Source: Membranipora membranacea
Taxonomy: Eukaryota > Bryozoa > Gymnolaemata > Cheilostomatida > Membraniporidae
Length of the DNA stretch: 64,000 nucleotides
Assembly: GCA_914767715.1 (NCBI GenBank)
Contig: OU612072.1
Coordinates: 18,660,001 to 18,724,000 of the forward strand
Direction of reading: 5' to 3'
Both the position numbers and the translations under genes were made by a program. The notes beneath the pieces are model-generated. The model saw nothing but the letters and a program-made list of their open reading frames with translations. It searched no databases and was not told where the DNA came from. Shown here one piece after another: positions 3,696 through 43,800 of the stretch. Positions within the stretch are counted from its first letter, which is position 1. Each line of letters opens with the position of its first letter.

Positions 3696-6600
3696 TCATG
3701 ACTGGCGCAACACCGTTGCTACTGTCAGCTCTTTCTTTCTTTCTTTGAGATAAGTCTTGTACTTGGTAACAGACTCTACTTCGAACAGCTGTATCCGGAT
3801 TGCCTCGTGGCTAGATAGTGATTTCCCAACCATTTCTAAAACATGAATACTTTATTCAAGTGCATAAGACAATGAAAATTCCTCCGGGTTTTTCTCATAT
3901 TTTGTCTATTTAATAATCAATGGAACATGACAAAACTCTGATTTTCGTCATAGGAATTGGGAACACATAGTCTAAAATTCCTTTCGACGTCCTTCATATA
4001 AAATAACAGGCGTCACTTGTGGAATCATAGGGCAAGTTTTACACATATGCCACTCAACGGAATGTTTCCATTCTCCGTCAGTCATTTAACTCATGCGCCA
4101 AAATGGACTCACCTTTGAAGACAATTCTTGTTTTCCTGTTATCAGGTAGCACAGGTTTAGTGAGCGAGTCAGGATGATCTGCTGTTCTCATATTCACTCC
4201 TGGTGATAGATACAGTTTCCTGCCATTGGTCAATGTACTGATTGTTACTGGCAGCTGACCTTTACCTTGTTCAGTTGCTCGCTCTCTTACAACAGACTGG
4301 ATCTAGAAAGATAACATACCAAAATATGTGTGCCTTTGCCATGTTATCATTTTATGCTGTATCTTGGATGATGATACAAATATGACACAGCAGGAAGGTA
4401 AAGCATATCTCTTACTTGATAACGAGGATGGCTTTGAAATCAAGATGATGATCCCATTTGTTATTGAGCTTATGCCTCAAATTTTTAAGTCACCATATAT
4501 TACATTGAAGACAAAAGCCCATAAACTTCCCAGACATCCGAAATACTCTCATCATTTGATTAGAACAGCAGTGTCATGACCCCTACTTTGTGCCATCTGA
4601 CTTGGCATTGGATCTCTCCAACCCTCAAACCAATCTGAGCTGACACATTGGCTAAGAAACCATCAATAAATTAAACCCCCTAATATCAACAGATTCAATA
4701 CCCACAATCTGCGTCTGAAATTTGCACACCATGTAAAAGCTCAAAAGAAGACAGCCGAGGAGAGAAGTTCAAGATCAAACATGACCACTGAAACTAATAC
4801 ATGTGGCGGAAGCTTCCAATTTAAAGTACATAACAATTTATAATATATTACTGTTTCGCCTAGCTGCACCACATGACTGTTTCCTGCACGTTTGTAAAAT
4901 GTTGCTATTAAAGCTCTGATGAATACTGATCCATATTTCTTGCGACGGTAGGCAGCATAGTCTGCAATATTAGCACAAAAGCACACATAGAATAAAAATT
5001 AAATTTCACTCAGAGATTTTAAGCTCCGCTAGCATAAGTACTTTGGGACCGGTTCATCTTTTGTATAGAAATTATGACCAGGAACTGCATTTGTATAGGT
5101 AAGTTTAGCCCAGCAAATCGGCAGGTGAATATAAGGAAGGAAATAGATTCATCCGGGCCTTCCAACCCCAAGGGGACTGGGGCAATTGTGTATCCTCCCC
5201 TAAGGGGACTGGGGAAATTGTGTATCCACCCGACAAGAATTGAACCCACAAGACTAGCAAAGTTACAGTGTTATAAGGAGGAAGCAAACGGTTAAAGGTG
5301 AATAACTTATCACAGGTAAGACCTTACCATCAAAGGATGCTTTGAATATAATAAGATCATCCAGAGATAGACGACTTTCATCATTGTAAGGCAATACTGT
5401 TGTCAGTGAAGGTGTATCTGGAGCAGCAACTGGTCTCAATATCTCGTCAATACCTGTGGTTTTATGTAAAGATATCATGCGCCAATGATAAATTGCTGTA
5501 ATCAGTATAGGGACTGTTTAAAGAACTAGGCGTTTGGCAAGTATAATACGATAAGCTTGACTAGGAAAGGGGGCTGTGGTGCCAAATTGGACTGTGTAAT
5601 CAGATATTGCATGTCTAACTACTCTAGGTTATGTCTGCGGGAGTCATGGCCTGAGCTGGGAACCTTTCGTTTCTCCTGACATTTCTCATTATTTTTTGTT
5701 CACACGTAATAATAAAAGAAGTTAACACTCCGGGATAATTATATTGCATATTGGGCTCTATGACGCTTCGCGTGAACACTGACACGCATAAGAAGCGTGG
5801 AGTACAGTCGCGTCAAACATCACACCTTGATTTTGTATTTGTGGCTCTGTCTTGTTCTGTTCTGTTGTCGCACCTGGCAACCCTTGGCTCTGTCCTACAG
5901 CAGTGCTGGAATCGGATGACTCTCTCTCCATTCTATTCACTACAATGTCAGAATAAAATGACATGTTGGGGGAGCAAGACAAATCCCTTCTCATCATATG
6001 ATGGAGGATGAGTACAGTTTACCTTTAAATCCTGCTCAAACTTCATGAGTGATTGTATTGCTTACCTCCAGAGCAGGTCTGTAAGATGATCATCTTTGGT
6101 TTGCCTTTCATTGCTGGGAAGTGTCTTGGAGACAGGAGATTGTAAATATCAACAAGTCTGAGATCCTGATCCTGTGTGCTAATCGTACCGAAATCTCCAT
6201 GGCTCATTATCACCAGCACAAACATTCCCAGACCTGAGTGTACTGATGTACCTGTTTCCTTGTCAACATACTGAGTCTCATCATGGATGGCCTGAACAAT
6301 TTCCTATATTAAAAAATCAAATGGGGATCCTGAATGTTCATCGAATCATTCAATATCCTCATCAACAAATAAGATATCGGTATTTATTACAGTTCCACAC
6401 GTTTCTGTTGATACTTCATGCAGGCTTGTAGGCTCACCTTTATTGCCAGTAATTTTATTTCAAATGGAATGTTTAAGAAGTAATGCCAGCAAAAGAGCTC
6501 GCAATACATGATACACTGTGTGCAATCCTGATAATTATATGAGAAGATGAAAATTGGACCAAAAACAGGCCTCAGGTTGTGTTGAAAAACCAGGGCACAT

Positions 6601-9600
6601 CAAGCATACAAATAATAAGTGATGATTTAGTACACACCTTGGCACTCCAGAACTTGTCGGCGCTTAACTGACTGGCAATAAATCCAAACCGCTTCAACAT
6701 GTTTTCTATATTCTTGTAGTCATGATCAGAACCTTTCCTAATTTGATGTTTGTCTGGAGAGTTTGGGTCTCGGACGTTGATTATCAGAGCTCGACCTCTT
6801 GTAGCACTCATTCTATATACCTACATTGATTAATTCAAGTAAATGAAAGAGAAGAATGTCTTCAAGAAGGGATGCATTTCACTGAAGGAATCAGTTATAA
6901 TACTATCCACTTGGCATCACTTTGAAATTGATGTTCTACATCTAATTTATAGAATCTGCAAGAGCTTTCTTCATAAATAATGACTGTAATGTGTTACGCT
7001 AGAGTCAGCTCACCTTCTCAACAGGAACAACTTGATATAGTGAACTCTGTAGGACAGGAAACATTTTGATTTCCGCAGTTTTCTCCCAAACTATCTGAAC
7101 AATTTCCTCTTGTCCAGCTAATGTCTTCGATCTGATATAGCCTTTAAGCTCTTCCATCTCTGCTGGTTTCAGCTTTACACCTTAACAATGATGAAACAAA
7201 GCAGTACAACAGTTTGTTACTATGTATCAAATCAATTCACCACGATATATTAAGGTTGCTGATTTTGATTGATTTCGTTAACGTCATCGTGTGGGACTAG
7301 ATCGGGGGCAGTGACTTTTGAATTGTCCTTGATTACAGCCTGAGTGACTTTATAACATCCCCATTGGATACAACAATACAAGTTCTAATTGTCCTTGAGT
7401 GAAACACGATGCTGCTAGTTCAGTACTTTAATCATCTCATCTGCAAATACAGTTGTTAGATAGGATAGGCTGCACCTGTAATGGATTACCATCCAGTCAC
7501 CAAACTCAAACGCGTCAAAGGCATTTGTGGCACTAAATGAGTTTGGAATATATTTAAACTTAGACTCACATGGTTGGAGAAGTGATAATGGTATGCCTTT
7601 TTCTTTAGCACATGTCTCCTGTTTTGCTGGTTGTTCACGAAAACCAGGATTCCTCTTGCCAACAATATGTCCCGGATTGAGAAACGCAGGGTTTGACCTT
7701 TGCAAGACAAGACAGTGGGGGCATGACAGTTTCAAATCGAATTTAGTTGCGGGCCATGTTTTTTTCACTTCTAATCTAAGCTTTCTGAGTAGATCAATGA
7801 ATGTTTTCCAGATGTCATGGACACATGTCATACTACCTTCCACTCTTATAGCCATCTGATGTCCACGAACATCATGGATCAGATGTGCGTCTAGTTCTTG
7901 CGAACTATCATTGAGGTTCAATTTCACTGATGCTCCGTTTCCATAAGGGAATGCTTGGTATGTTCTGTTTCTCAAAGCTTCCAGAAAAACAACTGTCATT
8001 TGCTGGAATGCGTATTCAGGAACCTTTAGCCCACGAAATATCATGGCGCCATATAACTTGATCTCAGCATCAGGAGGAAAGACTGTATGTTTGGGCATAA
8101 AATGTGGAAGTAAATAATTGTTAGCGGTGAAATTGAGATTTACTGGGCCATATAACAATTTGTATCTGCTGAGAAGAGCTGTTCCAACCGAAAACTGAAA
8201 ACCACATGCTTTTGTGATGTCTTCCAATGTCTGCTTCTGGATGATCCCATTGCGACTAAAACTGTCCGATTTCCAACTCTCATAAATCATATTTCTTGGT
8301 TCCTGAATTACGATGTGTTTCATCATTGTGTGATCATAGAGGGTGCTGATTAACTTGGCGACTGCTGGGATATTGTGAAAGAGAAAATTTGACATTGGTA
8401 GGTTGATTGGTGCTGATTTGTCATCTCTGCCATCATCTTCTTCATCATCATCACTTTCATCATCTGTGCTGTTGTTTGAGCTGGAGCTTGAACTACTCGC
8501 CTCATCTTTATCGTTTCTTTCCCAAATACTTCTGCTGATCTCATGCTGTTCATCTGTGTACCTTAACAGTAACCCGGAACGCTGCATGAAAGATAGCAGT
8601 TTGTCCAAGGCAACTTCAGATAGTTTTGATGAGAGATGGCTGTAATCCAAACATGACATGTCAGTTTTGGATAATATGGAGTCTATTTCTTCCTTCCAAG
8701 AGTCCGGTAATGTCGCTTTTGATTTTCTGGCCCGCTTCATGAGAGCTTCTTTCAACGGTGTGAAGATCTCATCAGATGTGTTTTGATGATAGCCAATATC
8801 AAATACTGAGTTCTCAAAAATCTCACTGGCCTTTCTAGAGCGGGATTTAAAAACCCCCATTCTTCTAGACTTTCGATATTCTTTGAACAGCTCTCTCTGT
8901 AGGATACGAATTGTATTGATCAGGTCAGCTTTCAAACTCTTAAACTCACCTTCCTTGTTAACAAACTTGTCTGAGTGAGTCAAAATAAGAATGGGGCTTT
9001 TCGACCCAGGTGCTACCATGAGAAGATGAGATAACCAATCAAAGGCTACTCTACGGGTAGCCTCTCGACTTCCCTTTTCCTCCGCTTCCCTTTTGTATTC
9101 TTGCATGCTAACAACTACCATGGGTATGCAATCTTTACGAAACGTTAGTTGATATGCATGTTGATACGTTTTGTCACCACCAAAGTCAATGACTCTAACC
9201 CGTTGCTCCAAATCTGGCGAGCTCAGATCAATTTCCTTAATCTCAAACACTTTTGTCTTTTCCACTCCAGGTAAGATTTCTCTTTTGAAATCATTTTGCA
9301 TGGCTTTGAGCAATGTGGACTTCCCAGCTTCTTTTTTCCCTATCAATACAATTGTTGATAGGGTTATGGCTGTTCTGCCGCGTTCCAAATCCTTGTAATA
9401 TTGCTTTATATTGCTGAATCCATCAAGACAAACAGCAAGAGGAGGCTCAACCAGTTCTGCGCAGTTTATAGATGTGAAATTCTCAAGCGGTAGAGATGTG
9501 ATATTCGAATGGAGATGGGTCATGTTGTAATTATTTGATAAATCCAGCCTCTTGAGAGCCCTCAAAGCATCAATCCACTCAGGTAATTCCCTCAAATCAT

Positions 9601-12600
9601 TGTTATTCAAGTTTAGGGAGCCAAGGTGTACCATTGTCTTCATGCTAAAAAAACAATTTATTATATTTATATATATTTTATTTTATATATTTTGCATGAC
9701 TGTTTCTATTCATTGATCATATTCCCCTAATATGAATGAAAAGGAAAAGAAAAACATACAAAAATCCTGCTTCTATAGGTTTATTTAATGTGCTAATGTA
9801 ATGTGTGAGAGGGGTGGGCTGTAATTATGCCACTTCAACTATTTGGAAATCAGCTGAGTTACAAGAATATTTTGTATTCATGTCATTGAGGGGAGGGGAG
9901 GTATGGCGGCCCATAGCACCTTTATTAATGCGCATTAGCTAACATGCTAACTCGCTAAGTCGCTAATGCGCATTAGTTAACATGCTAACTCGCTAACTCG
10001 CTAATGCGCATTAAGAGATAAAAGATTTCCAGAAATATTTTTGGGTCTGTCTTTATGCATGTGCGGGCTATCACTGTCTTGATATGGCCTCTGTGATTGG
10101 TCTTACTTTCAAAATAAGACCAATCACAGAGGTCATACTAATCTCTGCTCTACTACTCGTCCACCAAAAAATGATTTGAACCAAGCAATGTAATTTGTTG
10201 TGTTGTTGCTGATGGAGTTTTATTGTAAATGACACCTGTATCCTCATACCATTCATCACTGAGTATGGTAAGGCTATAACTCTCTGGTTTGGTACAACAT
10301 TAGAGCGTGATGGACAAAGTTTGCAGACTATTCCATCAGTTATATGTACTCAAATGATAACCTTTCAAACTCAGTATGAGTAAGTATATGATCAAGGAGT
10401 CCTTGATATAATATTGATTAGCAACTTGCATAGTATAGTAGTAGGCCTACCTCAGATTGATTTTGCACAGTTACTACTACATATTGTGGTGTCAACTGTG
10501 TGTTAATGAAGTATCTACTAAGCTGTTCATAGGCCTATCATTATGTCACTAGTGTTATCAGGGAACCAGACACACACAAGGCTGCAACTCATCAAATCAA
10601 CTGTCAGTGACCTGCTGTCTGTGAATGGACATGTTTTAAGTTGGAAAACATGGTTTTTTGTCAATGGTTTGCTCATGTCGCTCTAATCAAGGTATTAAGG
10701 AAGATATATATGTTGGGTTAGTTGTAGGCCAAGACGCAAGGGTCATTGTTGTGGTTCTATTGGTATGGTTTCGTCTCATGATCAATGTGAGAGATATTTA
10801 GAAATATCTAATCTAATGCAACATATATTTGATGTATATATAATTGGAGGACAAGTAAATCCCGGCATGTTAAAAAAGCTAATGCCAACTTAGGGATTGA
10901 GTTCCAGTTCTAGAACTTCAGAGAGAGCCTACAATCCCAATCATATTCTTAAAGGCTTAAAAAGAGGTTTCAACAAATGAAGTGCAATGCTCATGCAATA
11001 ATGCCCAGGTCACACCACCTGGTCGCACACAAATATTCAGCCAAATTATCCTTTATAGCAAGATATTTGTTACATACCCCTGGTTTTATGTTTTTTTGGT
11101 CTTTTTCTCAAGGTAAGTGGAAATTGCATCACTTTTTCTCTTCAGGCGCCCATGTATTCAGAGTGATTGTCAATGTCATTCACAAACATGAGCCTAGTGG
11201 ATAATTTTATGGGAGTAGCCTTCCCTCCCTGGGATTGTCAGGATGGGACCATTACCGTAACCATACTATGCCATTTATAAGCTTTACCTTCTTCACATCC
11301 AAAATCCCAGTCTTCACACCTTGTATTCAGATATTTAGCCTTGATTTGAGCTTTGTGTCAAAGCCTTTACTTTTAGTAGTTCAAAGTTTGGTAAACAATC
11401 TGGTCAAAGTATTGTCATTGTAGAGGCCAGCCCAGTTCGGATACAATTTGTCCTCTGCCCCCAGAGAGCATTGGATTTGACCAATAAGATTTAATTATTT
11501 TTATTGAACCCCTGACTGAAGACCAGGCTTTTGTCAACTTTAATTAAAACAGGGCCCTAATAATGAATTGCCAATATTATCCGGCTGGCGGGAATAGACG
11601 CAGTAAATTGGTAAAAAAACAGTTTCTTCACACCTTGATTCACCCTATTTTCCGCTTTATACTGTAATATATATATTAAAATGTATCCTAAAATGAACAC
11701 CATCATAGATTTGTTGCACTCAAACCCCTTGTCAATACAATTGGCAATACAGTAAAAATGACCAGCGGTTTGTTAGGGTCCTCAAAATAACAATTTTGTG
11801 CCCAGTGAAATCCTTGGACTGAAAAAATAATTCAATTGTAATATTTTAAAGATGATGGTGATGGAGAAGAGAGCGATGGTACAAATGATAACAATGGAAG
11901 GCATGATGACAATGGTATACCTTTATCACTACCAACATTAGATCCAAAGACTGCTTTTGGTGAGTCACAATTTAAGATTTATTCATGAGATAAAATACAT
12001 TACCAACCTAGAGACCGATCAAAGAATAATCATAGTAGCGGGCCCACCAGATGAATCTGACTCAGAATAGATATAATATTATAATGAAATTCAAGTCAGC
12101 CTCTTCCCAAAACATCTGATAAAATGATTTGCCCTCACTGATTTTGACAATACAATAAAGTAGCCCAGTTTGGTAGCTGGCGTCACAGGAAGAAGTCATC
12201 ATTATCAGCCAGGTCTACTTTATTGACATCGTCTTGGAGTTGCAATGTCACGGAAAGGGGGATGACAACTCCAACCATCTATGAGCAGCTATACGTTATT
12301 TTTTTAGGTATCTGCAATATCAACTAACATCTGTTGACAGTTATTGGCCACCAAGGTTTCAATTTTGAGATGGTTCCTGCCCAAGATGAATATCATGGAT
12401 CCTATCCGTTGTTAACCCATAGTTACATTATAAGCTGCCACTTGTGTTGTTAATTTTAGAAAGAGTGAAGATGCGACTTCAGAATTAGTACCCGACATTT
12501 CACCAATTGATAACACAAAATTATTTTGCTTTTAGATGAAGGACTCATTTTGACCCCAAAAAAAGAAAAGCCAATAAGTTCTACTCAGGAAGCACCGACT

Positions 12601-15600
12601 GGTACATGTAAGTAAACATTTTCTTTGCTTAGTCTCAGTACAGAAATCAAGCTCGTTGCAGCAAAGATACAGTATCCAGTTGATCTTGAGACTTGAGCAG
12701 TAATGTTTGACTGAAAGGATAAGATTGGGATTGGCCATAAAGACCTATTTGTGTTGTATCCTCATACTAATTTTTATTGCAGATATATTGACAATTGTGT
12801 GTGGAGTTCGGATAAACCTCAAATCAGAGGATTGAGAGTGAGTTGTTTGTATGTTGATAAATATATTAATACTACCTGGTTGGCGGCGACCATTTCAATC
12901 TACATTGCTCAGTTTTTTTATCTGTTTGTCAAGGAGAAGAGTTTGAGAGAACTTGGTTTAGATAAATAGAAATTATTTCAACTTAGTTGAGCTAGGCTAA
13001 GGCCAATCTCTTGCATTATTAGGCTATGCTATGTTTTACCCCAATTTTGTTTGCCTGCATGCACTGCCTTTGCTGCCTGCTAGTAATGGATATGTCTATC
13101 TTTCGAAGGTGCTGAGAGGGCACTGGGTTACAATGATACTGTAGTGATCGAGAAGATGGGGGATCTCTATAGGGCTGCATCTAATCAGAATCGACGTTAA
13201 CTTCAGTGTCTTAAAAAAGATGTAAGTAAACCAGCTAATGGCCTGTCATGACAACCTTGATGTTGGTTATGTTGGTTGAGGAGGGGGCACCAACAAAGTT
13301 TGTCAAGATATGCTATCTGGATCAGTACAATGACATGACACACAGATTTTAAGATTGGCATTTTCAGGTAGTCAAGTTTGCTTGAAACACTAAAGACTGT
13401 GTAGGGTCTTTCAAGTAAGTCCTAGCTTAGTTTCTCTGCAAAAATAACAAACAAATAATAAAGGTCATTGCTAGGCAAATTCTAAGTGCGTGATCACTTT
13501 TTACTATATGAGCCCTACTTTGAGTGTACCATCTGGCTCTGTTACCATTCAATCTAACGAATCGTTCAACTATTGAGTTGAGACCTCTGAACAAGAGAGG
13601 ACAACTCCGTAGAATACAAAGAAGTCTTGAAAGAAGCACTGTATCCCTGCTGTATCAGTGTAGTTGGACCAAATGCATTGTAGGAAACCAACTGTGTTGT
13701 TATTCTCCTTTTTAGAAAGTCATAGAGCTTACTCTGAATGGTGAGAGCGATGACTCCTGCAGCAAAGCTATCAAACCAATTAAATTTTTCTCCTCCTCCA
13801 TTTTTATATTTAATTAACAAAATTTTTCATCATATGTATATATTTATCATTAAACAGGTATTTTGCAATAAATAAACAACCTGAAAAATCACCACACTCT
13901 TTCATAATAAAATGACAATGAGTTTAATTTGAAATTTGAAAGTATCATTATTTAGCTTTGGAGCAGGGAGAATTCTCCCCGTTGTGAGAAGAAACTGTAC
14001 AAGTGTTGTGCGGATTTGTGCAGTCTTGGATACTCTCTCTTCATACTTCGACCCAAGTATATAGACATGTCTTATGTTCTGGACTAACCCAACAGTTCTG
14101 TAGGCTAGACACTACACTATGCAGCGGTTTCACTGTGGGAAAAAGATTATCAAAGATTAATGTAATGGAGACATAGTATGGAATATCTATAAAAGATTAT
14201 TAAAACCGTAAGCGGAAACAATTTAGGTCCCGGAACATTGGAACAATATATCAAACCAAGACAAACGTAATATGAGGTTTGGAGCTGGACTAAATTAGCC
14301 ATCATGATTTTATTATCAAGAAATAATATCACATCATATGTCACACAAAATCTAAAGGTATGGCAACTAAAGGAGAGTTGTCTACTCTTTGGAAGAATAG
14401 GGTGATCCACTTGAGATGACAGTAACATGAATAAGGTGAGAAACCAAAATACATATTAAAGTAATCACTGAATGAAAAGTACACAAAACATTGCACATTA
14501 TTATAAATGCGCATTGCTAGAAATGCGCATTGTTATAACTGCGCATTTCTAGAACTGCGCATTCTTAGAACTGCGCATTCTTAAAACTGCGCATTCTTAG
14601 AACTGCGCATTTCTAGAACTGCGCATTCTTAGAACTGCGCATTCTTAAAACTGCGCATTCTTAGAACTGCGCATTCTTAAAACTGCGCATTCTTAGAACT
14701 GCACATAACAAAATGATTGATGGAAATTTGTCATACAACATTGTCTGTAATGAAGTACCAGACCTGCCAAAACTCCAGTCACTAATTTTGAGTCACCCTA
14801 TTTTCACACCTCAAATAATACAGGTTGGATCACAGGTCTACTCCAAAAACCTGGGATTTTGGAGAAGACCTGTGATCCAACCTGTGTTATTTGAGGTGTG
14901 AAAATAGGGATTTTGGAGTGAAATCCCAGGTTTTGGAGTAGACCTGTGGGTTGGAAAGAAAGATTGCAGAGCAGTCTAGGCTAGGGCATCCATCAAGACC
15001 CATTCCCATGGGCTGTTGCATGTAAATCCATGGCTATCCATGCATGCAACTTTGGCCAAAATGAGTGAGTGATACCTTGATGTAAAGTAATGTTACCTGG
15101 TAAGTGTTCTTCTTGTGGTTCTTTATAGCTGGCCAGCCCTAACTCATTTAACTATCTATGTATAAGTTTCTTCATTAATTTGTCTGCTTCAGGCTCCTCA
15201 TGGTGATCCACTAACAAACTCCAAAACCAAAGAGCCACAATCCATTTGTGTCCTCCACATAAGAGTGTGATCACATGACCAACATGTGATGTAAATAATA
15301 ATACAACAGACCTAAGACATTGACTCAATGATTGATCAAGAAGAATTGGCATCTCACAATCTCCCATGTAAGTAGTTTGAAATAGTTCCAGGGTCATGGC
15401 AGGTATGGTAGTGGTGTAAGTGCCTATCACAAAGCCCATCTTTGATAATACAGTCATTACCCAAAACAGGTTTAACTGCGAGTTAGTGAGTTAGCATGTT
15501 AATTAATGCGCATTAGCGAGTTAGCATGTTAACTAATGCGCATTAGCGACTTAGCGAGTTAGCATGTTAATTAATGCGCATTAATAAAGGTGCTACGGGC

Positions 15601-18194
15601 CGCCATAGGGGAGGGGAGGGGAGGGGAGAAACCTCCCTTTGTGGGAATTGCTGACAAGGAGGAGTAGAGATTCGTGGTTATTATTACCTCTTCTGCATGG
15701 AAAGATTTTGTGTGAAGATAAGCAAAGCAAGAAGTGATGGAAAAATTATTTCAATGGTCTACTAAATAATGAGAACAGCAGGGAGCAACTGCCTCTGCAG
15801 TTGCCAATACAAGGGCCAGTACCCAAAATCAATGAAGTGGAAGTTAACATCTAGATAGGAAAGATGAAGCCCAACAAAGCCACGGGGCCAGACCAACTAC
15901 CAATAGACATCATAAAGCTGCTGAAAGAGAGGGGAAACACTGGGTGACAGTGTGTTTAAACAACATCATCCCTGAAAGGATACCACCAGACTGGAGGGAG
16001 AGCACAATAACACCAATATATAAGCAGAAAGGAGACCCTTTAGACTGCGGAAATTACCGTGGGATTAAACTGCTAAGCCACTGAGACACTGAGCCACTTG
16101 AGAGGATAGTTGAGCAGAGAATCAGAGAGTTAGTCACAATCAAGGAAAACCAGTTTGGATTTCAGTAGGGAAAATCAACCACAGAGCCCATGTTCTGCCT
16201 CAGAATTCTTCAGGAGAAACACAAAGACTACAACCAAGCTCTTCATAAATGGTGTTTGTAGACCTTGAAAAAGCCTATGATACCATACCACGTGAGCTGG
16301 TATGGTTTTGCTTACGAAAATGAATGGTTCCAGAGCAGAACATCGACATCATCAAAGACATGTACGAAGACTGTAGCACCAGTGTTAGGACGGACTCCAG
16401 ACTGACAGACAAGATCCACATTGAAGTTTGATTACATCAAGAATCTGCACTAATCCCGCTGCTCTTCATCATAATAATGGATGTTATAACAGAAGACATA
16501 AATGAGGACAGCCCATGGGCAATGTTATTTTCTGATGATCTGGCCTTTTGCGATAGTGATCGAGAGAGACTAGAAAGAAGGGTAGAGATCCGGAGAGAGA
16601 AGATGGAGGCAGCGAGATTGAAGATAGCTGAAAGAAAACAGAGCATGTGCCAGCAGTTGGAGACCAAGAGAACATCGGGATGAAGAAGTATGAAAGTCAA
16701 GAAGCGGAAAGCCTGCCTAAATGTTCTCAGTTCAAGTACTTGGGCACAACAATCCACCAAGATGGAGGTTGCCGCAAGGAGATAGAGCTGAGAATATCTA
16801 AGGCTCGGAATAAGTGGAGAGAACTGACTGGTGTGCTCTGTGACAAGAAAATGTCTACTAAACTGAATATGCTGATGTATAAAACAGCTATCAGACCAGC
16901 TCTGCTATTTGGAAATGAGACATGGCCAATCACAGGATCGCTGGCGGATAAGATGTCATCCTGCGAGATGCGAATGTTGAGTTATTGTATGAGCATAAGT
17001 CTAGAGGACCACACAAGAGAAATGAGGAAATAACAGCAGAGGCCGGAGTGTTGCCAATTGAAGATCTGATGAGGTGGTATGGGCATGTTAGACGGAGAGA
17101 AAGTGAGGACGACATCCGGAGAGTGTCAGAGATGACAGTCGAAGGAGTGCGACCTAGGAGTAGACCGAAACAAAGATGGTGCGACACGGTGAACTCAGAC
17201 CTTAGATGGCTTGATCTAGATGGATCAGATGCTGAAGATCGAGTGCGATGGAGGAGTTTGGTAGAACTTGGGATCAAGTAGAAACCCGCCATCCACACAG
17301 GACCACGGCGGTGAAAGGTGACCAAAGGTAACCACCATGTCATAAGTATGATGTTAGGGAGTGCTTGGATTCAAGGCCAAACCCGATTAATGTCATTATT
17401 CCTGCCTGAACAATAAAGGTCTATGCTTACCTCTCAGGTAATGTACGTAGCCGACACCTGATTATTTCTAGACTTCTGAGGTTCTTCAAATGTGAGAGAG
17501 TATTATCTAGTCCATCAGCCGTTCTCAGATTGTTATCCCAAAGCAAAAGTTCTGTGAGATTTTCCATTTCTGAGATACTACCAACAAATATAATTCATAA
17601 TATTACCTACAATTACCAGATGATATGGCTACGATATCTGATCCCTAGTATCACAGCTTACTGACATTTTGTGATTATTTGATAACAGAAGTCAGTGTTT
17701 CATATGAAAACGCAGGGTAGAAAGGGAAAGAAAAAATAACTGTCAATGAAAAATATCATAAATGCACTTCCTGTCTAGGTTGTTCATCTCGGCGAAAGGC
17801 CAACATTTTGGAAAGACTATTGTCAAACAATCTCTGGCAAAATGCACACAGAGATGAAATAATTTTCCCATCATCCCATCCTGACACTGACAGATAGGAC
17901 ATTGAGCTGTATTCTTATAAATTGTAACAACTTACTGTCAGGATCACATTGATCCTTACAGTAAGTTGAGAGTAATTTGTTGACAATTAGTTAACAATTA
18001 ATTGAGCGTAACATCTTCAAGTAAAAAAATTTGAAAGCAGCTCAACATCAAATTTACCAATGCAGGAAGACATTCAGTGTGCCAGTCTCATCCACGTGAC
18101 TCAATGTGCATTTCTGTTGATCGACATGCAGTTCACCATGTCCAGTTATCACCTTCAAGCTGCAACGGTGTACCGAAGTTCTAACTTCCGCCAT
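3696..18194 (-). CDS. LRR-Roc-COR GTPase fused to a caspase (predicted Roco-caspase, 11 exons, 1208 aa)
   Basis: Coding exons in transcript order: 18194-18058, 17577-17431, 9644-7570, 7180-7014, 6820-6638, 6303-6066, 5939-5826, 5453-5328, 4961-4852, 4302-4113, 3835-3696. They total 3627 nt, each junction is GT-AG and in phase. Domains: about four leucine-rich repeats (residues ~50-150); Roc GTPase with P-loop GKKEAGKST (197-205), switch DFGGDKTYQ (248-256) and THSDK (317-321); COR region (~413-735) interrupted by a Ser/Asp/Glu-rich run (475-504); a CPHC motif (736-739); caspase p20 with S1-pocket Arg870, His938 in MSHGDFG and Cys980 in QTCSG; p10 with Arg1068 in [10 protein letters not shown] and closing strand KLYLSPG; then a ~74-residue tail. 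Roco proteins are GTP-regulated scaffolds; caspases cut after Asp. I infer a GTPase-gated protease. An acceptor-like site sits just before the ATG, so further 5' exons are possible. The fusion depends on the 7570/7180 junction. Confidence 0.75.
3836..4112 (-). other. Last intron of the Roco-caspase; retention would give a shorter C-terminus
   Basis: The exon ending at 4113 has a strong donor (AAAG followed by gtgagt). The final exon starts after gttttag at 3835 in matching phase and encodes [17 protein letters not shown] and so on, to a TGA at 3698-3696. If the intron is retained, the frame runs 11 more codons to a TGA at 4080-4078. Both forms keep the whole caspase domain and differ only in the tail. 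Confidence 0.5.
7014..7570 (-). other. Splice junction joining the Roco exon to the caspase exons
   Basis: The large Roco exon stays open to a TAG at 7417-7415. A consensus donor (T followed by gtgagt) lies inside it, with last exon base 7570, leaving phase 1. The acceptor at 7181 follows a pyrimidine-rich stretch and also begins in phase 1, so the join creates Cys787 and continues into residues [14 protein letters not shown]. Reading straight through instead adds 51 residues and stops, giving a GTPase-only product. The codon just upstream of the caspase-side acceptor, in the caspase frame, is TAA, so these exons need an upstream partner or a start at the internal ATG near 7157. Confidence 0.6.
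9902..10016 (+). repeat. Left inverted arm with ATGCGCAT-rich subterminal repeats
   Basis: This arm matches the reverse complement of about 15480-15607 with few differences. It holds three AATGCGCATTA palindromes separated by AACATGCTAACTCGC units. Such repeated palindromes near the tips of an element are typical transposase-binding layouts, which is an inference here. Confidence 0.65.
10085..10137. repeat. Perfect 18-bp hairpin just inside the left arm
   Basis: CCTCTGTGATTGGTCTTA is followed by a loop of about 9 bases and its exact complement. The perfection suggests recent origin or selection. No terminator function can be assigned in a eukaryotic sequence. Confidence 0.8.
10977..13200 (+). 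CDS. Possible small acidic-protein gene nested in the Roco-caspase intron, unknown function
   Basis: Candidate exons are 10977-11112, 11852-11959, 12536-12607 and 13109-13200. Each internal boundary has a GT donor and AG acceptor in phase 1, and the last exon ends at a TAA. The predicted 135-residue protein has an Asp/Asn/Gly-rich segment ([15 protein letters not shown]), a Lys-rich segment ([11 protein letters not shown]) and a C-terminus [20 protein letters not shown]. The last three exons look like genuine coding sequence; the first, starting at an ATG and ending at a strong donor (CAAG followed by gtaagt), is the weakest. I recognise no family. It lies wholly inside the 9902-15607 inverted-repeat interval, so it may be element cargo or a host gene caught between elements. 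Confidence 0.4.
14507..14705. repeat. 16-bp minisatellite, consensus TTAGAACTGCGCATTC
   Basis: About twelve tandem units of 16 bp, such as TTAGAACTGCGCATTC and TTAAAACTGCGCATTC, with the first units more diverged (ATGCGCATTGCTAGA). The TGCGCATT core is also the core of the subterminal repeats of the enclosing inverted-repeat element, which suggests the array grew from element sequence. There are no unique spacers. Confidence 0.9.
14792..14910. repeat. Foldback element of about 118 bp
   Basis: CCCTATTTTCACACCTCAAA and CAGGTTGGATCACAGGTC on the left are matched by their complements on the right around a short loop near AAAACCTGGGATTTTGG. A third partial copy (CCCAGGTTTTGGAGTAGACC) follows, so this is probably a nested or partly duplicated foldback. 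Confidence 0.75.
15480..15607 (-). repeat. Right inverted arm of the 5.7-kb element
   Basis: This is the inverted counterpart of 9902-10016, carrying GCGAGTTAGCATGTTAA units and AATGCGCATTA palindromes before AATAAAGGTGCTACGGGCC. It is one repeat unit longer than the left arm, as expected of a tandem array changing copy number. Confidence 0.65.
15850..17281 (+). pseudogene. Degenerate LINE (non-LTR retrotransposon) reverse transcriptase
   Basis: Across several frames broken by stops and frameshifts one reads reverse-transcriptase landmarks in order: [47 protein letters not shown], the active-site box [18 protein letters not shown], the thumb region [18 protein letters not shown] with [15 protein letters not shown], and the C-terminal [16 protein letters not shown] with [10 protein letters not shown]. 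This order and wording are typical of non-LTR elements common in invertebrates and fish. The many disruptions show it is inactive. No endonuclease or 3' tail was identified. It occupies the Roco-caspase intron next to the inverted-repeat element, on the opposite strand to that gene. Confidence 0.9.
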
Positions 18195-23298: not shown

Positions 23299-26200
23299 TC
23301 AGTACATATTGAGTCTAGTGGTGATGAGAACCCTCAGTGTTTGATCGAAGGCAGTGCACACACATAGTCCTTGTTTGTCAGGTGACCAATCGAAGCTGCT
23401 GATTGGCTGAGTGGATAAGGCAGTATTCTGTATCAACTCTACAGACCCCATAACTCCCACTTCCTGTCCATCCTCTGCTTTATTGGCTCTTTTAGATGGG
23501 TAATTACTGAAAGTAAAGGAAATGATGTTACCAAAAGTGATAACATGATATGTCATTACATGACATTTACCTGATCGATACAGCAAGACTTGATTCATGC
23601 AGCAGAAGCAATGAACTTCTGTAGCCTTAGATCATTAGACCAGTGAACTACCACTCCCTAGGGTGGGGACGAAGTTATTCATGCAGCAGAAGTATATTCA
23701 GCAGAGATAAGTGTGACAGTCTGAGGTCTAACTCTAGTTTGGGGGCAGGCACATATTAGGTTCTAAGATTATATTGACTCCATCAATCAGGTATACACAT
23801 TCTAAACGCGTAATCTTGATGCTAGTGCGATTGTCAGTTATCCCTGAAGCACACCCTCAGGTCAGATTAATGTAAGCACTAAGCAGCAATGGACTTATAA
23901 GCTACAGAGAAAGCATACCATCCGCTCAAAAAACACGAGGCAAAGTATCTCTTAATCATTGACAACAATTTTTATATCCTTCACATTTCAATCGCAGTCA
24001 AATCCATCAGAGCGAAGTGGTGACATGACTGAGTGCATGTTGAATCTCTGTTTTTCGGTACCAATTAATTTTTGCAACTTTATTTATCTGCAAACTTACT
24101 ATTTCCATAGATTGAGGGTCCCTGTACCTCCACATGTCATAAATATATCTCTGTTCTGAGGTAGATGTTTCACACACCACACTGTAGATTTGTGAGCCTG
24201 AAATCAACAACGAGAAAACATTTACCTACTGTGAACATGAAATCAAAAGGTGAAACATTTTATTTTGCTTTTTTTATTTTGACTGAGCAATTGATATACT
24301 CTGTAAACTAAACATGGCTCAAATATGAGGTGATGTTGGTTTTATTTAAACAACGACATCAAAGTCAATGACTTGGTTCCAAATTTTATCACTTTGAGAC
24401 CATTAAAACAGGAGGAACCTGATTAGAATCCCACACAATGCCTCAGCTTTGCACAAGAATTCAGCGGTTTTGAACACTCTGTTGGCCGAAGGGATATCGT
24501 GACATTTGATCAGCATTCAATCCTCTGAGTTAGACATACAGCAGAACAAGATAATAGATCAGTTCCGGTCATAGGCTGATATTACCCGACGTGACTGACA
24601 TGTGTACACCACTTACCTTCTCAACTAGACTAGAGAAACCTTTTGTTTCATGCTGTGTTCTCATATCATAGACATGGAACTTTGATTCTAATGTTGTGGC
24701 TACTAACTTATTCATGTCTATGTCCTTCCTGTCGAATTCTACTGACACTATCTGCAATAAAAGTAATGAAGCATATTTAAATAAATTGTAAGGTCAGATT
24801 TATCACCATTAGAGTTTTGCACCTTAACTTTATTGATATAAACTCGACACTATTCATATTTTGGATAGATCAGTGTATGATGGAAAACTATCAAAACTAA
24901 CAACTAATTTACTGTTTCCTAACATGTCCTCAATGTTGGAAAACTGATTATTTGTGCTTGCAATGATTCAATGATTCAACGATAACGTATTCACTTGATT
25001 TGACATTTTATTTCTCATTCATACGGAGTTGTCCATACTCAAATTGAGCAGAGGAGGCAACTCTAAGTGGAGTTTTCTTGATCTGCTCTGATGATAATTG
25101 AAGCTTCAGTACCCAGATATAGTTATATGGTGGTAGTAGCATTGACTATTAACCAAATACGTCAATTATTTGAAGGTTGGTTGATAATGACATTTCATTT
25201 TAAGCAGTCAGAGTAGTGAAAGGCAACAATGGACTTTCTCACAGTGATTTTCCAATACCACACTGTTCAAATCTTCTTCTTTTTCTAGAGTATCGATGCC
25301 GTGAATTTGGCATCAATGCCTGATATTGTTCCTGCAGTGTTTGCTGATCACAAGCGCTACCTTTAATCTACCCACAAAGAGCTTAAAAACTCACCCCGTT
25401 CTTGAGATTATTCTCCCAGCGTAAGGCCATCTTCCTTAGATCAAATAATTTAATGTCACCATTATCATATCCAGCAGCCACACAGCGATCGTGTACATTG
25501 AATGCATGTCCTACAACAATATGTAATATATAAACGATGTAGGCTTCATTACATGATCAATATTGGAGTCATCTTGCATCAAATCTACATGAATAGTGCA
25601 TCAGGCATGTATTGCCAATGGCAACTTCTGCCTACTCTTGTATTGCCTTTGTGGCATTGGACGGCAGCCATTTTTGTTTGGCCAAATGACAAGGCTACAG
25701 TCTGTGGTTTTGAAAATTTCAGACTGTGAACTACTTATTAGCACATGGAATATATTACTAGTGGATCTTACTTACTCACAAAAAAAAACAACTGCAATAT
25801 GCTGGTATTGCTCAGGATGGAGGCGCGCTGAGATGTTGACTCTTAATCTTACCAAAAGCCACGGCCCAGCAGTCCCTCTTAGCTTCTCCCTCTCCTGGTT
25901 CCATCGTCGCTACAGGATCTCCTTTCTGTCTCGGATCCCAAACCTTAACAAGTCCATCTCTACTACCCGTCACCAATTCGGGAGCACCTGCAAACAAAAT
26001 ACACAGTCAACAACTTAAGGTCACCTGCAAATATAATACAGTCTACCTGTCACCAACTCAGGGGCGCTTGCACAAGAATACATAGAAATGTAAAACTGTT
26101 ACCATGTCTGTAGCACCTGAGGAGTACAATTCATAATAAGAAAAAAATCCACCCGTCAACAACCTACAAGGATATTAAATGAACATGACAGTCAATCTAA

Positions 26201-40800: not shown

Positions 40801-43800
40801 CTTGATATTTTCACTCAAAGTTGAGATGAGAAGCTCCCTAAAAGGTTCTATTTTTCATGATTATAATGAGAATTGTACCTGTTTGATACTACGGATCCGA
40901 GCCACCACAGGCTGTATATGAACCTAGATCGATAAATTCTAAACTAGACTGAGAAGTCCAAAATGACTCCAAAACGTGATTCTCTAACTATGACTGTTTG
41001 TTATTTGACAGGTTCTATTTTATCCGCACCTTACCGCCGCTAGAGGAGCTACCTATGTGTAAGGTACCCGTATTACCACTAAAGACTCGATCCACTCCCG
41101 AGTATTCTCTGGTGTTAGACTTAGACGAGACTTTAGTACACAGCAGTCTGCAGGAGCTGCCTAACTCTGCCTTCAACTTTCCTGTACTCTTCCAGGGTGT
41201 CAACTATCAGGTAAGAGTCATCACATCGAGTAGGAGGTGGCTTCTTTAGCATGCGAGTTCTGGTTTCGAATCCCACTGCAGTCCATCGTTTACTGAGGTT
41301 CGGTTGGTCCCCAGGTGTGCTCCGACCTGCCTGCAAACAGAGAGAGCAACCTGGCGCAGACTTTGCCCATGCTTCAGGATGTGGCGTGTGATAAGACCAT
41401 CTGATTTTAATCAACCATCACATGGTTAAAAAAGATCACACCTGCCTGAGTCATAGCCATAATTATTTAAATGTTTTCGATCACAAACATTGGAATAATG
41501 TCTATGAAAAAAATCCCCATATAAAACAACATCACTTCAACCTCACTGAACCTTGTTACATCCAGTAACCCAGTTATTAGTATAGACTAAAAGAACAATG
41601 CTATAAGGTCCTGCATAAAACATTTAAAAAAAGCGGGTATTGCTTGCACATTTGTAGTCTTTTCCTGTAATGGTGATATTCATGACAAAAACACACTACC
41701 GTAATCCCTCACCTATAGATCGCGCGACGTATAAGTGAAGGCGGCTATTAGAGAGTAGTATATAGACGCGACTATCATTTGAAGCATTATTATATTTAGT
41801 TTGGACCAAAACCTCTTACAATCACCGAAGATGAATAGCTCAGTGGTAGAGCGTTTGACTTGTAAACATGGAGTTGTGAGTTCGAAACCCACTGAGGGCA
41901 GCTTTTTTCCCAAAACTACTTAGTTCATTTGTAGTGAGTGTAGTGTAGTGAGTGTCTTAGAGCGGTGGGGTGTCTTATAGCTGTGGGGTGTCTTATAGCT
42001 GGAGCATTTTTATTTTTTCTGAGGGGGGTGATTCACTTATAAGTCCGGTGACTTATAGGTGAGGGATTACGGTACCAAGAGAACTTCTTAATCAGACCCC
42101 TAAGTTTTTGAACATTGTTCATTTTTGATTTGATAGGCGAGTAGTAGAAAAGGATGGTCAAGCCATGTCATAGACCCTTGAGTAATAGGTATATTTTGTT
42201 TAATAGTCATATACTAGTAGTTACAACAAGTAGGTTTTCCTGCTATAAATGACACTTTTTGTTGTGCTGATTTCAGGTATATGTTAGGACGAGGCCATTC
42301 TATCAGGAGTTTTTGGAGCACATGTCTAAGCACTATGAAGTGATACTGTTCACAGCTAGTAAGAAGGTGTACGCCGACGCTCTCACTAATCTACTCGACC
42401 CTCATAAAAAATGGATCAAGTAAGTAACGCTATGCAGTAAGCATGTTGTAGGTTCATCAGTAGTCCTGAGCGGAGAAGGGAAAATTTATATCAATTAAAA
42501 TGAAGAATGAAAAACTATCTCTTAATTAAATGAGACAATTTGCCGATTCCATATGTTTGCATCACATGAAGTTACTTCTCAAAAGGGTTATGCGCAGCTC
42601 TTTTTTGTGAGATATTCCTCTATCAGGTTATTTGGCACCAGATACAGTTACAGGTTTATCTAATCTCTACTGAAAGTTATTGAACTACTGTGACTCGATG
42701 CGTTTGACTAGTACTGTTTACCCTATAGGAGTTTAATTTAGCTAGAGTTTAATTTCGCTATCTGGACCTGGTACTAAATTTCGCTAGTACTAATACTAGT
42801 ACTAAATTAAAAAAAAAGGCAGACACTTAGACCACTACACCACACTACCTTGCATGCCAATGTAAGGTGTATTCCTGTATAATTGTACATTGTTTATGAA
42901 ACTAGCATTGTTTAGGAAGTAATTTCCGCTATCATAAAATTTCGCTACTTAGGCAAAAACGTGAAAAGCGAATCCTAAATGCCGGGAAAACTAAACTCCT
43001 ATAGGGTATGTAAAAACTTGCAAGGTGATAGAGATTTTCTTCTCCATTTGGAGTTGCCTCCTTGTGATGACAGACCAAAATTTTACACTATTGTAACGTG
43101 TGACTTCGTTACCAATAAAGTTATTATATGCTCTATATCTCTATATACTTTACATATATACTCTACGTTGTTACCTGAATACTGTTTTATTTTAAAGGCA
43201 CAGATTATTCAGAGAACATTGTCGGTGTGTAAACGGTAACTACATCAAAGACCTGACTACTCTGGGCAGGGATCTAAAGAAGACTATCATAATAGATAAC
43301 TCTCCTCAAGCCTTCGCATATCATGTGAGTTAGAGCACCTGTCATCAGTCAAAGAGCACCTGCTAATAGCCTTAGAGTACCTGCTATTAGCCTGAGAGTA
43401 CCTGATGTTAGTCTGAGAGCAACTGCTATTAGTCTGAGAGTACATACTGTCATTCAGAGGGCACCTGCGTGTTTTTAATCTATGATGTAATGTGTGTCTC
43501 ACTGAACTGCATATAGTGATGTATAAACACAATCTTATATAATTATGTAGAAGTTGCATTGTTTTATATTTGACTGTCTTTGAACATGGAGATATATGGC
43601 TGCATACGATAATTATATACATTAATGTATATGTAATTCTGTGTGAATTGTGATATATAAATATATATATAACTGTATATTGTATGTGTCTGTAGATCGG
43701 TAATGGTATACCGATAGAGTCATGGTTTGTTGATCCGGAGGACTCAGAATTACTCAAACTAGTTCCATTTCTCAAGAGAATTCCCAGCGTGGTATGTTAT

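Follow-up and report, generated by a model that had tools for sequence, protein, structure and literature searches.

The question raised by this locus is whether a Roco GTPase and a caspase encoded one after the other on the minus strand of a Membranipora membranacea contig are parts of a single gene, as the first-pass annotation had proposed, and how the product of such a gene might work. The window, meaning the whole stretch of DNA analyzed, comprises 64,000 nucleotides (C8:18660001-18724000), and the genome searched is the one from which it derives (339,339,785 bases, 18 contigs).

Gene model and predicted domains

The predicted minus-strand gene running from 18194 to 3696 was rebuilt as eleven exons encoding 1208 amino acids, with GT-AG boundaries in 10/10 introns and phases that agree across all joins, which bears out the eleven phase-consistent exons first proposed. 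The exons are as follows.

18058..18194, minus strand: exon 1, first coding exon, aa 1-45
17431..17577, minus strand: exon 2, leucine-rich repeats, aa 46-94
7570..9644, minus strand: exon 3, end of the LRRs, Roc GTPase, and COR, aa 95-786
7014..7180, minus strand: exon 4, linker of ~56 aa, aa 787-842, entered in phase 1 and left in phase 0; paralogs have homologous exons
6638..6820, minus strand: exon 5, start of caspase p20, aa 843-903
6066..6303, minus strand: exon 6, catalytic p20 exon with SHGDFG and QTCSG, aa 904-982
5826..5939, minus strand: exon 7, p20-p10 linker, aa 983-1020
5328..5453, minus strand: exon 8, start of p10, aa 1021-1062
4852..4961, minus strand: exon 9, p10 core, aa 1063-1099
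4113..4302, minus strand: exon 10, end of p10 and tail, aa 1100-1162
3696..3835, minus strand: exon 11, C-terminal tail and stop, aa 1163-1208

An acceptor-like TTTCAG lies directly upstream of exon 1, suggesting that a 5′ UTR exon may come before it. By reading of the sequence, the 23-residue LRR register is preserved over the exon 2/3 splice, and exon 3 stops at the COR boundary with the donor CCAT/GTGAG (the slash marks the splice point), which is common to many paralogs. Intron 2 is by far the longest intron of the Roco-caspase gene at 7.8 kb; within it, ORFs at 15848-17370, mainly on the plus strand, resemble what we take to be a non-LTR reverse transcriptase remnant. Elsewhere in the window, an ORF on the minus strand at 23299-23631 has a weak WD40 match (E 0.035) and is perhaps the last exon of the upstream neighbor on the same strand, an ORF on the plus strand at 40980-41249 contains a motif presumably like that of a CTD small phosphatase exon, and positions 2069-2404 hold a repeat that by eye is degenerate and rich in TTTTCCCACCA, with an open frame of 111 aa.

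When the joined protein was scanned with Pfam, matches were obtained to LRR_8 (1.4e-6), Roc (1.5e-5), and Peptidase_C14 (8.4e-26, profile positions 1-229 of 233, aa 850-1124), and the individual exons scanned singly agree with this domain layout. The Roc scores of 25.7 bits on the whole protein and 26.9 bits on exon 3 both fall just under the Pfam cut-off of 27 bits. A Ras-like domain with a P-loop and a DxxG motif, as in Roco proteins, is nevertheless present, and no variation is seen in the P-loop (G....GKST), DFGGD, or THxD between the window gene and four relatives, among which P0001, P0005, and P0007 carry precomputed PF08477 assignments. The Pfam COR profile gave no match on the predicted protein. 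The COR part does align to bacterial Roco proteins at ~20% identity, and the alignment to the COR of the bacterial Roco protein P0002 continues to its C-terminal end. Among solved structures, the sequence of exon 3 is similar to archaeal Roco2 (4wnr, 3.4e-6) and to LRRK1 (0.0011). Exon 3 was modeled with low confidence (mean pLDDT 51.9); the best Foldseek E values of this model were 2.7e-14 for LRRK1, 2.7e-10 for LRRK2, 2.3e-10 for the Chlorobium Roc-COR 3dpu, and 1.4e-6 for the Methanosarcina Roc-COR 4wnr, with TM-scores of ~0.2 and rmsd values of 23-33. VIA-align placed two tubulin-cofactor complex chains first, followed by LRRK2 and LRRK1 among many GTPases. Together, the bacterial alignment and the Foldseek matches support a predicted COR region directly after Roc.

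Both the His (SHGDFG) and the Cys (QTCSG) motif of caspases are found in the window gene, and the caspase part matches solved caspases with a best value of 4.6e-11 and the bryozoan caspase P0008 with 36% identity over 317 aligned positions. The gene is thus predicted to encode a caspase with p20 and p10 regions and the catalytic His and Cys. No CARD, DED, Death, or PYD domain was detected by Pfam at E ≤ 1 in the 1208 aa, in agreement with the earlier observation that an adaptor is absent, and no NB-ARC/NACHT ATPase of the kind that defines Apaf-1 and the NLRs was detected at the same threshold. A death fold was also absent from ten minus-strand ORFs between 18054 and 23631, a set that includes exon 1 and the exon of the neighboring gene and leaves room for unplaced 5′ exons. 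Roc-COR could stand in for the death-fold prodomain of an initiator caspase.

Roco-caspase loci across the genome

Searching the genome with exon 3 gave 124 matches in 64 loci, which are the 64 scored out of 292 Roco candidates; they are clustered, on C8, C9, C11, and C5 and elsewhere. When the genome was scanned for the Pfam caspase domain, 140 out of 515 candidates were scored, and 145 matches were obtained. A PF00656 match lies less than 6 kb downstream on the same strand in 31/64 Roco loci, and in none of the 64 does the 6-kb stretch contain a caspase match either upstream, on the same strand, or downstream, on the opposite one. By tblastn, homologues of exon 4, 5, or 6 were found in the 1.5-kb flanks of 10 more loci (L089, L090, L091, L111, L112, L108, L109, L099, L104, and L110), L099 and L104 being counted from exon 4 and L110 from a 15-residue exon-5 match. 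Caspase exons were present in longer stretches of three further loci (L151, L153, and L154), that of L151 being confirmed by Pfam with 27.2 bits. A caspase thus accompanies 44 of the 64 loci when counted from the Roco side, the downstream stretch read being too short to count in the other 20. When the count starts with the caspases, a same-strand Roco C-terminal region precedes 22 of the 30 best PF00656 loci; 15 of these are new places, bringing the total to at least 59 Roco-caspase loci. The recurrence of the Roco-then-caspase order across the genome indicates more than chance. What had been described as a single gene is therefore one of at least 59 such loci in the same genome. Within the 64-kb window itself, tblastn for a further Roco or caspase copy gave only chance-level matches. 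A pattern count of the family returned five matches, all from the nearest subfamily, and was too strict for counting.

No Roco end was found at eight of the 30 best caspase loci (L118, L119, L122, L124, L125, L130, L134, and L137). At L118, L119, L124, and L130 the 1.5-kb flank contains no Roco end, and the open frames span 241-588 aa. The C5 paralog L151 has a strongly diverged caspase, with QACQ in place of QACxG.

That the copies are mostly dead genes or assembly duplicates would fit the identical exon-6 sequences at different places (L127 and L128; L132 and L137), the likeness of L090, L091, and L111, and the many six-frame caspase matches that cross stops, which introns would also produce. 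However, the Roco exons in all listed loci have open frames of 654-813 aa with no internal stop, and other copies are ~25% identical to the window gene. The His and Cys motifs are moreover kept in 35/35 exon-6 matches, a count that selection at E ≤ 1e-8 tilts toward intact exons. These matches represent 32 places from 38 loci queried, the same-place pairs being L089/L152, L132/L148, and L136/L149, and they include L122, L134, and L137, all among the loci where no Roco end was found. Widespread decay or duplication artifact is accordingly very improbable. The Roco linkage of 22 of the 30 best caspase loci, together with the 292 Roco and 515 caspase candidates, tips the balance slightly toward an animal lineage in which much of the caspase system is a repertoire of one-chain LRR-GTPase-caspase receptors, dozens to hundreds in number, with sensing, switching, and cutting all done by the single protein.

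The junction between the Roco and caspase exons

Splice points were compared in a set of 26 loci, which includes the window and several close copies. The Roco exon ends in CCAT/GT[AG]AG in 14/26 loci, CCCT/GTAAG in 1, CAA[TC]/GTAGG in 4, and CCAG/GTCAG in 2; L110 has a shifted donor, and the script did not pick up the donor in L097, L106, L108, and L109, where VPC or GPC is in frame. Pro-Cys with a GT donor is found in L148, L150, L153, and L154, and Pro-Ser without Cys in L149. On the acceptor side, the codon at which the window gene has its phase-1 acceptor has one in seven paralogs as well (L089, L097, L099, L104, L106, L107, and L148). This leaves seven residues ahead of the position of Met 795, where the seven paralogs carry Ile or Lys rather than Met. 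In L097, L099, L104, L106, and L107 several phase-1 acceptors are open and the one at the shared codon was chosen; since five of the seven are mutually close and have other open acceptors, they amount to about three independent groups. No exon 4 was detected by tblastn in many loci, including L090, L091, L111, and L115-L117, in L150, L153, and L154 the script did not recover a complete exon 4 bounded by the two conserved ends, and in L149 it ranked exon 4 only second. The acceptor of exon 4 in the window gene (7180) ends in AAG, and a simple acceptor score put other acceptors above it; AAG also precedes exon 5 in L089, L090, L091, and L111.

The alternative of two adjacent genes would have the Roco gene end at the stop at 7415 or in a short terminal exon and the caspase begin at Met 795 under its own promoter. 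Met 795 (7157-7155) is in a good start context, GAGATGG, with TATAAA at 7354 and ATTAAA at 7432, and the start of the Watersipora subatra (Bryozoa) protein P0009 resembles exon 4 from Met 795 (shuffle p 0.014 to 0.033). The only named relatives returned by the protein search are the Watersipora subatra proteins P0008 and P0009, each annotated as a stand-alone caspase. Against this, the order Roco-then-caspase on the same strand recurs in the family, the Roco-exon donor is widely shared, and the seven paralogs that keep the acceptor codon lack the Met, which means that a separate caspase gene starting there is not their state. There is no AATAAA in intron 3, and the next one on the minus strand, at 6459, lies within the caspase part. 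The ORFs between the donor and exon 4 in which a terminal Roco exon might lie are all ≤32 aa, which by itself excludes nothing. The question of whether the caspase has its own start had been set beforehand as a test, and paralogs with the same donor, phase, and codon and without the Met answer it against separation.

A separate caspase start at Met 795 was considered as a candidate in its own right and rejected, as the paralogs keep the acceptor and the linker exon without that Met.

P0001, from a public contig, is 99% identical to exon 3 of the window gene, with one different P-loop filler residue, and reads through the exon 3 donor to the same last residues. In P0005 and P0007, distant relatives of exon 3, the conserved part ends at the same Pro-Cys and is followed by Lys, as expected of a read-through donor; P0006 is without the Pro-Cys end. 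P0005, P0006, and P0007 are known as protein only and are ≤45% identical to the genome's own loci compared, indicating that they are probably from other species. Identities in the COR and caspase parts are correlated (r 0.83, Mantel p 0.0008, 28 pairs among 8 loci, leaving out L115 and L116 as near copies of L117 and L151 for want of a p20 match), as expected of parts that stayed together. With the gene model, the Pfam matches, and the paralog order all upholding the proposed union of LRR-Roc-COR and a full caspase, two adjacent genes are extremely improbable, and the sequence makes it almost certain that the Roco and caspase parts form one gene, one of many copies.

Known relatives and possible mode of action

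Apaf-1 and the NLR inflammasomes combine repeats, a nucleotide switch, and caspase activation, using a STAND ATPase and a separate caspase that is recruited through a death-fold domain. The predicted protein is like them in the way it may work only, with a Ras-like GTPase in place of the STAND ATPase and the caspase on the same chain. Among other animal genes, the LRRs-caspase and TNFR-caspase hybrids of amphioxus (Zhang et al. 2008, PMC2575513) likewise place receptor repeats and a caspase on one chain and have been proposed as adaptor shortcuts; they differ in that the term "roc" is absent from the main text of that paper, where a hidden Roc is possible. The animal ROCO proteins MFHAS1/MASL1, LRRK1/2, and DAPK1 share the Roc-COR core, mostly with LRRs, and links to cell death and immunity. 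ROCO proteins with CARD or death domains are described in Trichoplax (PMC4104024) and ROC-COR with TIR in Aplysia (PMC9334734). The partners in these animal proteins are a kinase, a death fold, or TIR; a caspase partner is unmentioned in the accessible portions of these two papers. In two papers on bivalve caspases (PMC7836458 and PMC10967218), a term search of the accessible text turned up neither LRR nor GTPase, and in PMC10967218 also no ROC.

The closest counterparts in architecture are bacterial LRR-AP-GTPase(Roc)-COR conflict proteins, for which at least 24 C-terminal effectors are reported, a caspase among them (Kaur et al. 2021, PMC8195603, as far as its accessible portions go). The gene model and the paralogs likewise give a single chain that runs from LRR through Roc and COR to a C-terminal effector, and both the order and the presence of several paralogs per genome are shared with the bacterial systems (PMC8195603); the present case differs in being from an animal, with 11 exons, a metazoan-type p20/p10 caspase, and a linker exon. 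The match is a likeness of architecture, not descent. The view that this architecture was undescribed therefore fails for bacteria, given the LRR-Roc-COR-caspase proteins reported there, and stands for animals within the open-access PMC literature, where no report of an LRR-Roc-COR-caspase was found, most subscription papers lying outside that scope. Our own bacterial sample consisted of the 80 loci nearest a TIR-bearing query, out of 526, and is biased for that reason; after five tails of <60 aa were dropped, Pfam assigned TIR_2 to 28, CHAT to 9, and Peptidase_C25 to 1 of the 75 COR tails. PF00656 followed COR in 0/75 tails at E ≤ 0.01, and a regular expression for the caspase motif found none in the tails of the 80 loci. 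The presence of the caspase-like CHAT in 9/75 and Peptidase_C25 in 1/75 indicates that such proteases follow COR in bacteria too.

We consider it likely that the gene encodes a single-chain receptor-protease in a large clustered family, with a switch mechanism of the following kind. The N-terminal LRRs would be the sensor, and Roc and COR would form a nucleotide-controlled switch and dimerizer. Ligand sensing by the LRRs may change the nucleotide state of Roc, upon which Roc-COR would shift its oligomeric state and the caspase domains would be brought together or released. COR-mediated assembly could in this way activate the caspase, and the outcome, reached with no need for CARD, DED, or PYD adaptors, may be cell death or proteolysis of an inflammation-like kind. 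The GTP-dependent dimerization suggested by the first-pass annotation runs against CtRoco, which is mainly a monomer with GTP and a dimer when nucleotide-free (PMC6337361, in its accessible portions). Complexes of MASL1 likewise depend on nucleotide binding, according to the accessible text of PMC3995007. By analogy, it could be in the nucleotide-free or GDP state, and not in the GTP form, that the caspase domains come into proximity.

It is also possible, at a clearly lower probability, that the fusion is real and Roc-COR acts as a lid on an effector-type caspase, which is cleaved by another caspase once it is released from the Roco part. Caspases of the effector type usually exist as dimers before they are activated by cleavage. 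If the present caspase is of this type, release or cleavage, not proximity, could be the trigger. The named Watersipora relatives are called caspase-6-like and caspase-3-like, P0008 has ~20 residues ahead of the caspase domain and P0009 ~85 with no known domain, and candidate Asp sites can be read in the p20-p10 linker of the window gene. The names, however, were given by similarity only, and the linker and the co-divergence fit a lid and an assembler alike.

As for the role of the single-chain receptor-protease family, expanded clusters that combine LRRs, a switch, and an effector are typical of immune receptors, which by analogy makes an intracellular immune role the likeliest. Service in development, through metamorphic tissue regression or polypide recycling, would accord with the fact that bryozoans dismantle much tissue during their life cycle. 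The title of a Mytilus coruscus study claims a caspase expansion with a role in metamorphosis (PMC10967218). Dozens of clustered LRR-bearing copies would nonetheless be closer to receptor repertoires than to a developmental switch, and we regard a developmental rather than immune function as improbable.

Animal caspases are usually thought to depend on separate scaffolds; in this clustered family of at least 59 loci, a sensor, a GTPase switch, and a protease are predicted on one chain. The family offers a simple system for testing how a bound effector is controlled through the nucleotide cycle of a Roco protein, which for LRRK2, too, is still an unanswered question. What appears to be new is an LRR-Roc-COR-caspase in an animal, and as a large family, the layout itself being known from bacteria (PMC8195603, accessible portions), and the family provides an animal counterpart to the layout described for bacterial conflict systems. 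The dozens of copies point to death or immune sensors that are self-contained and form a family, and if much of the caspase system is indeed run by such receptors, an animal lineage would be using the same layout as the bacterial conflict systems.
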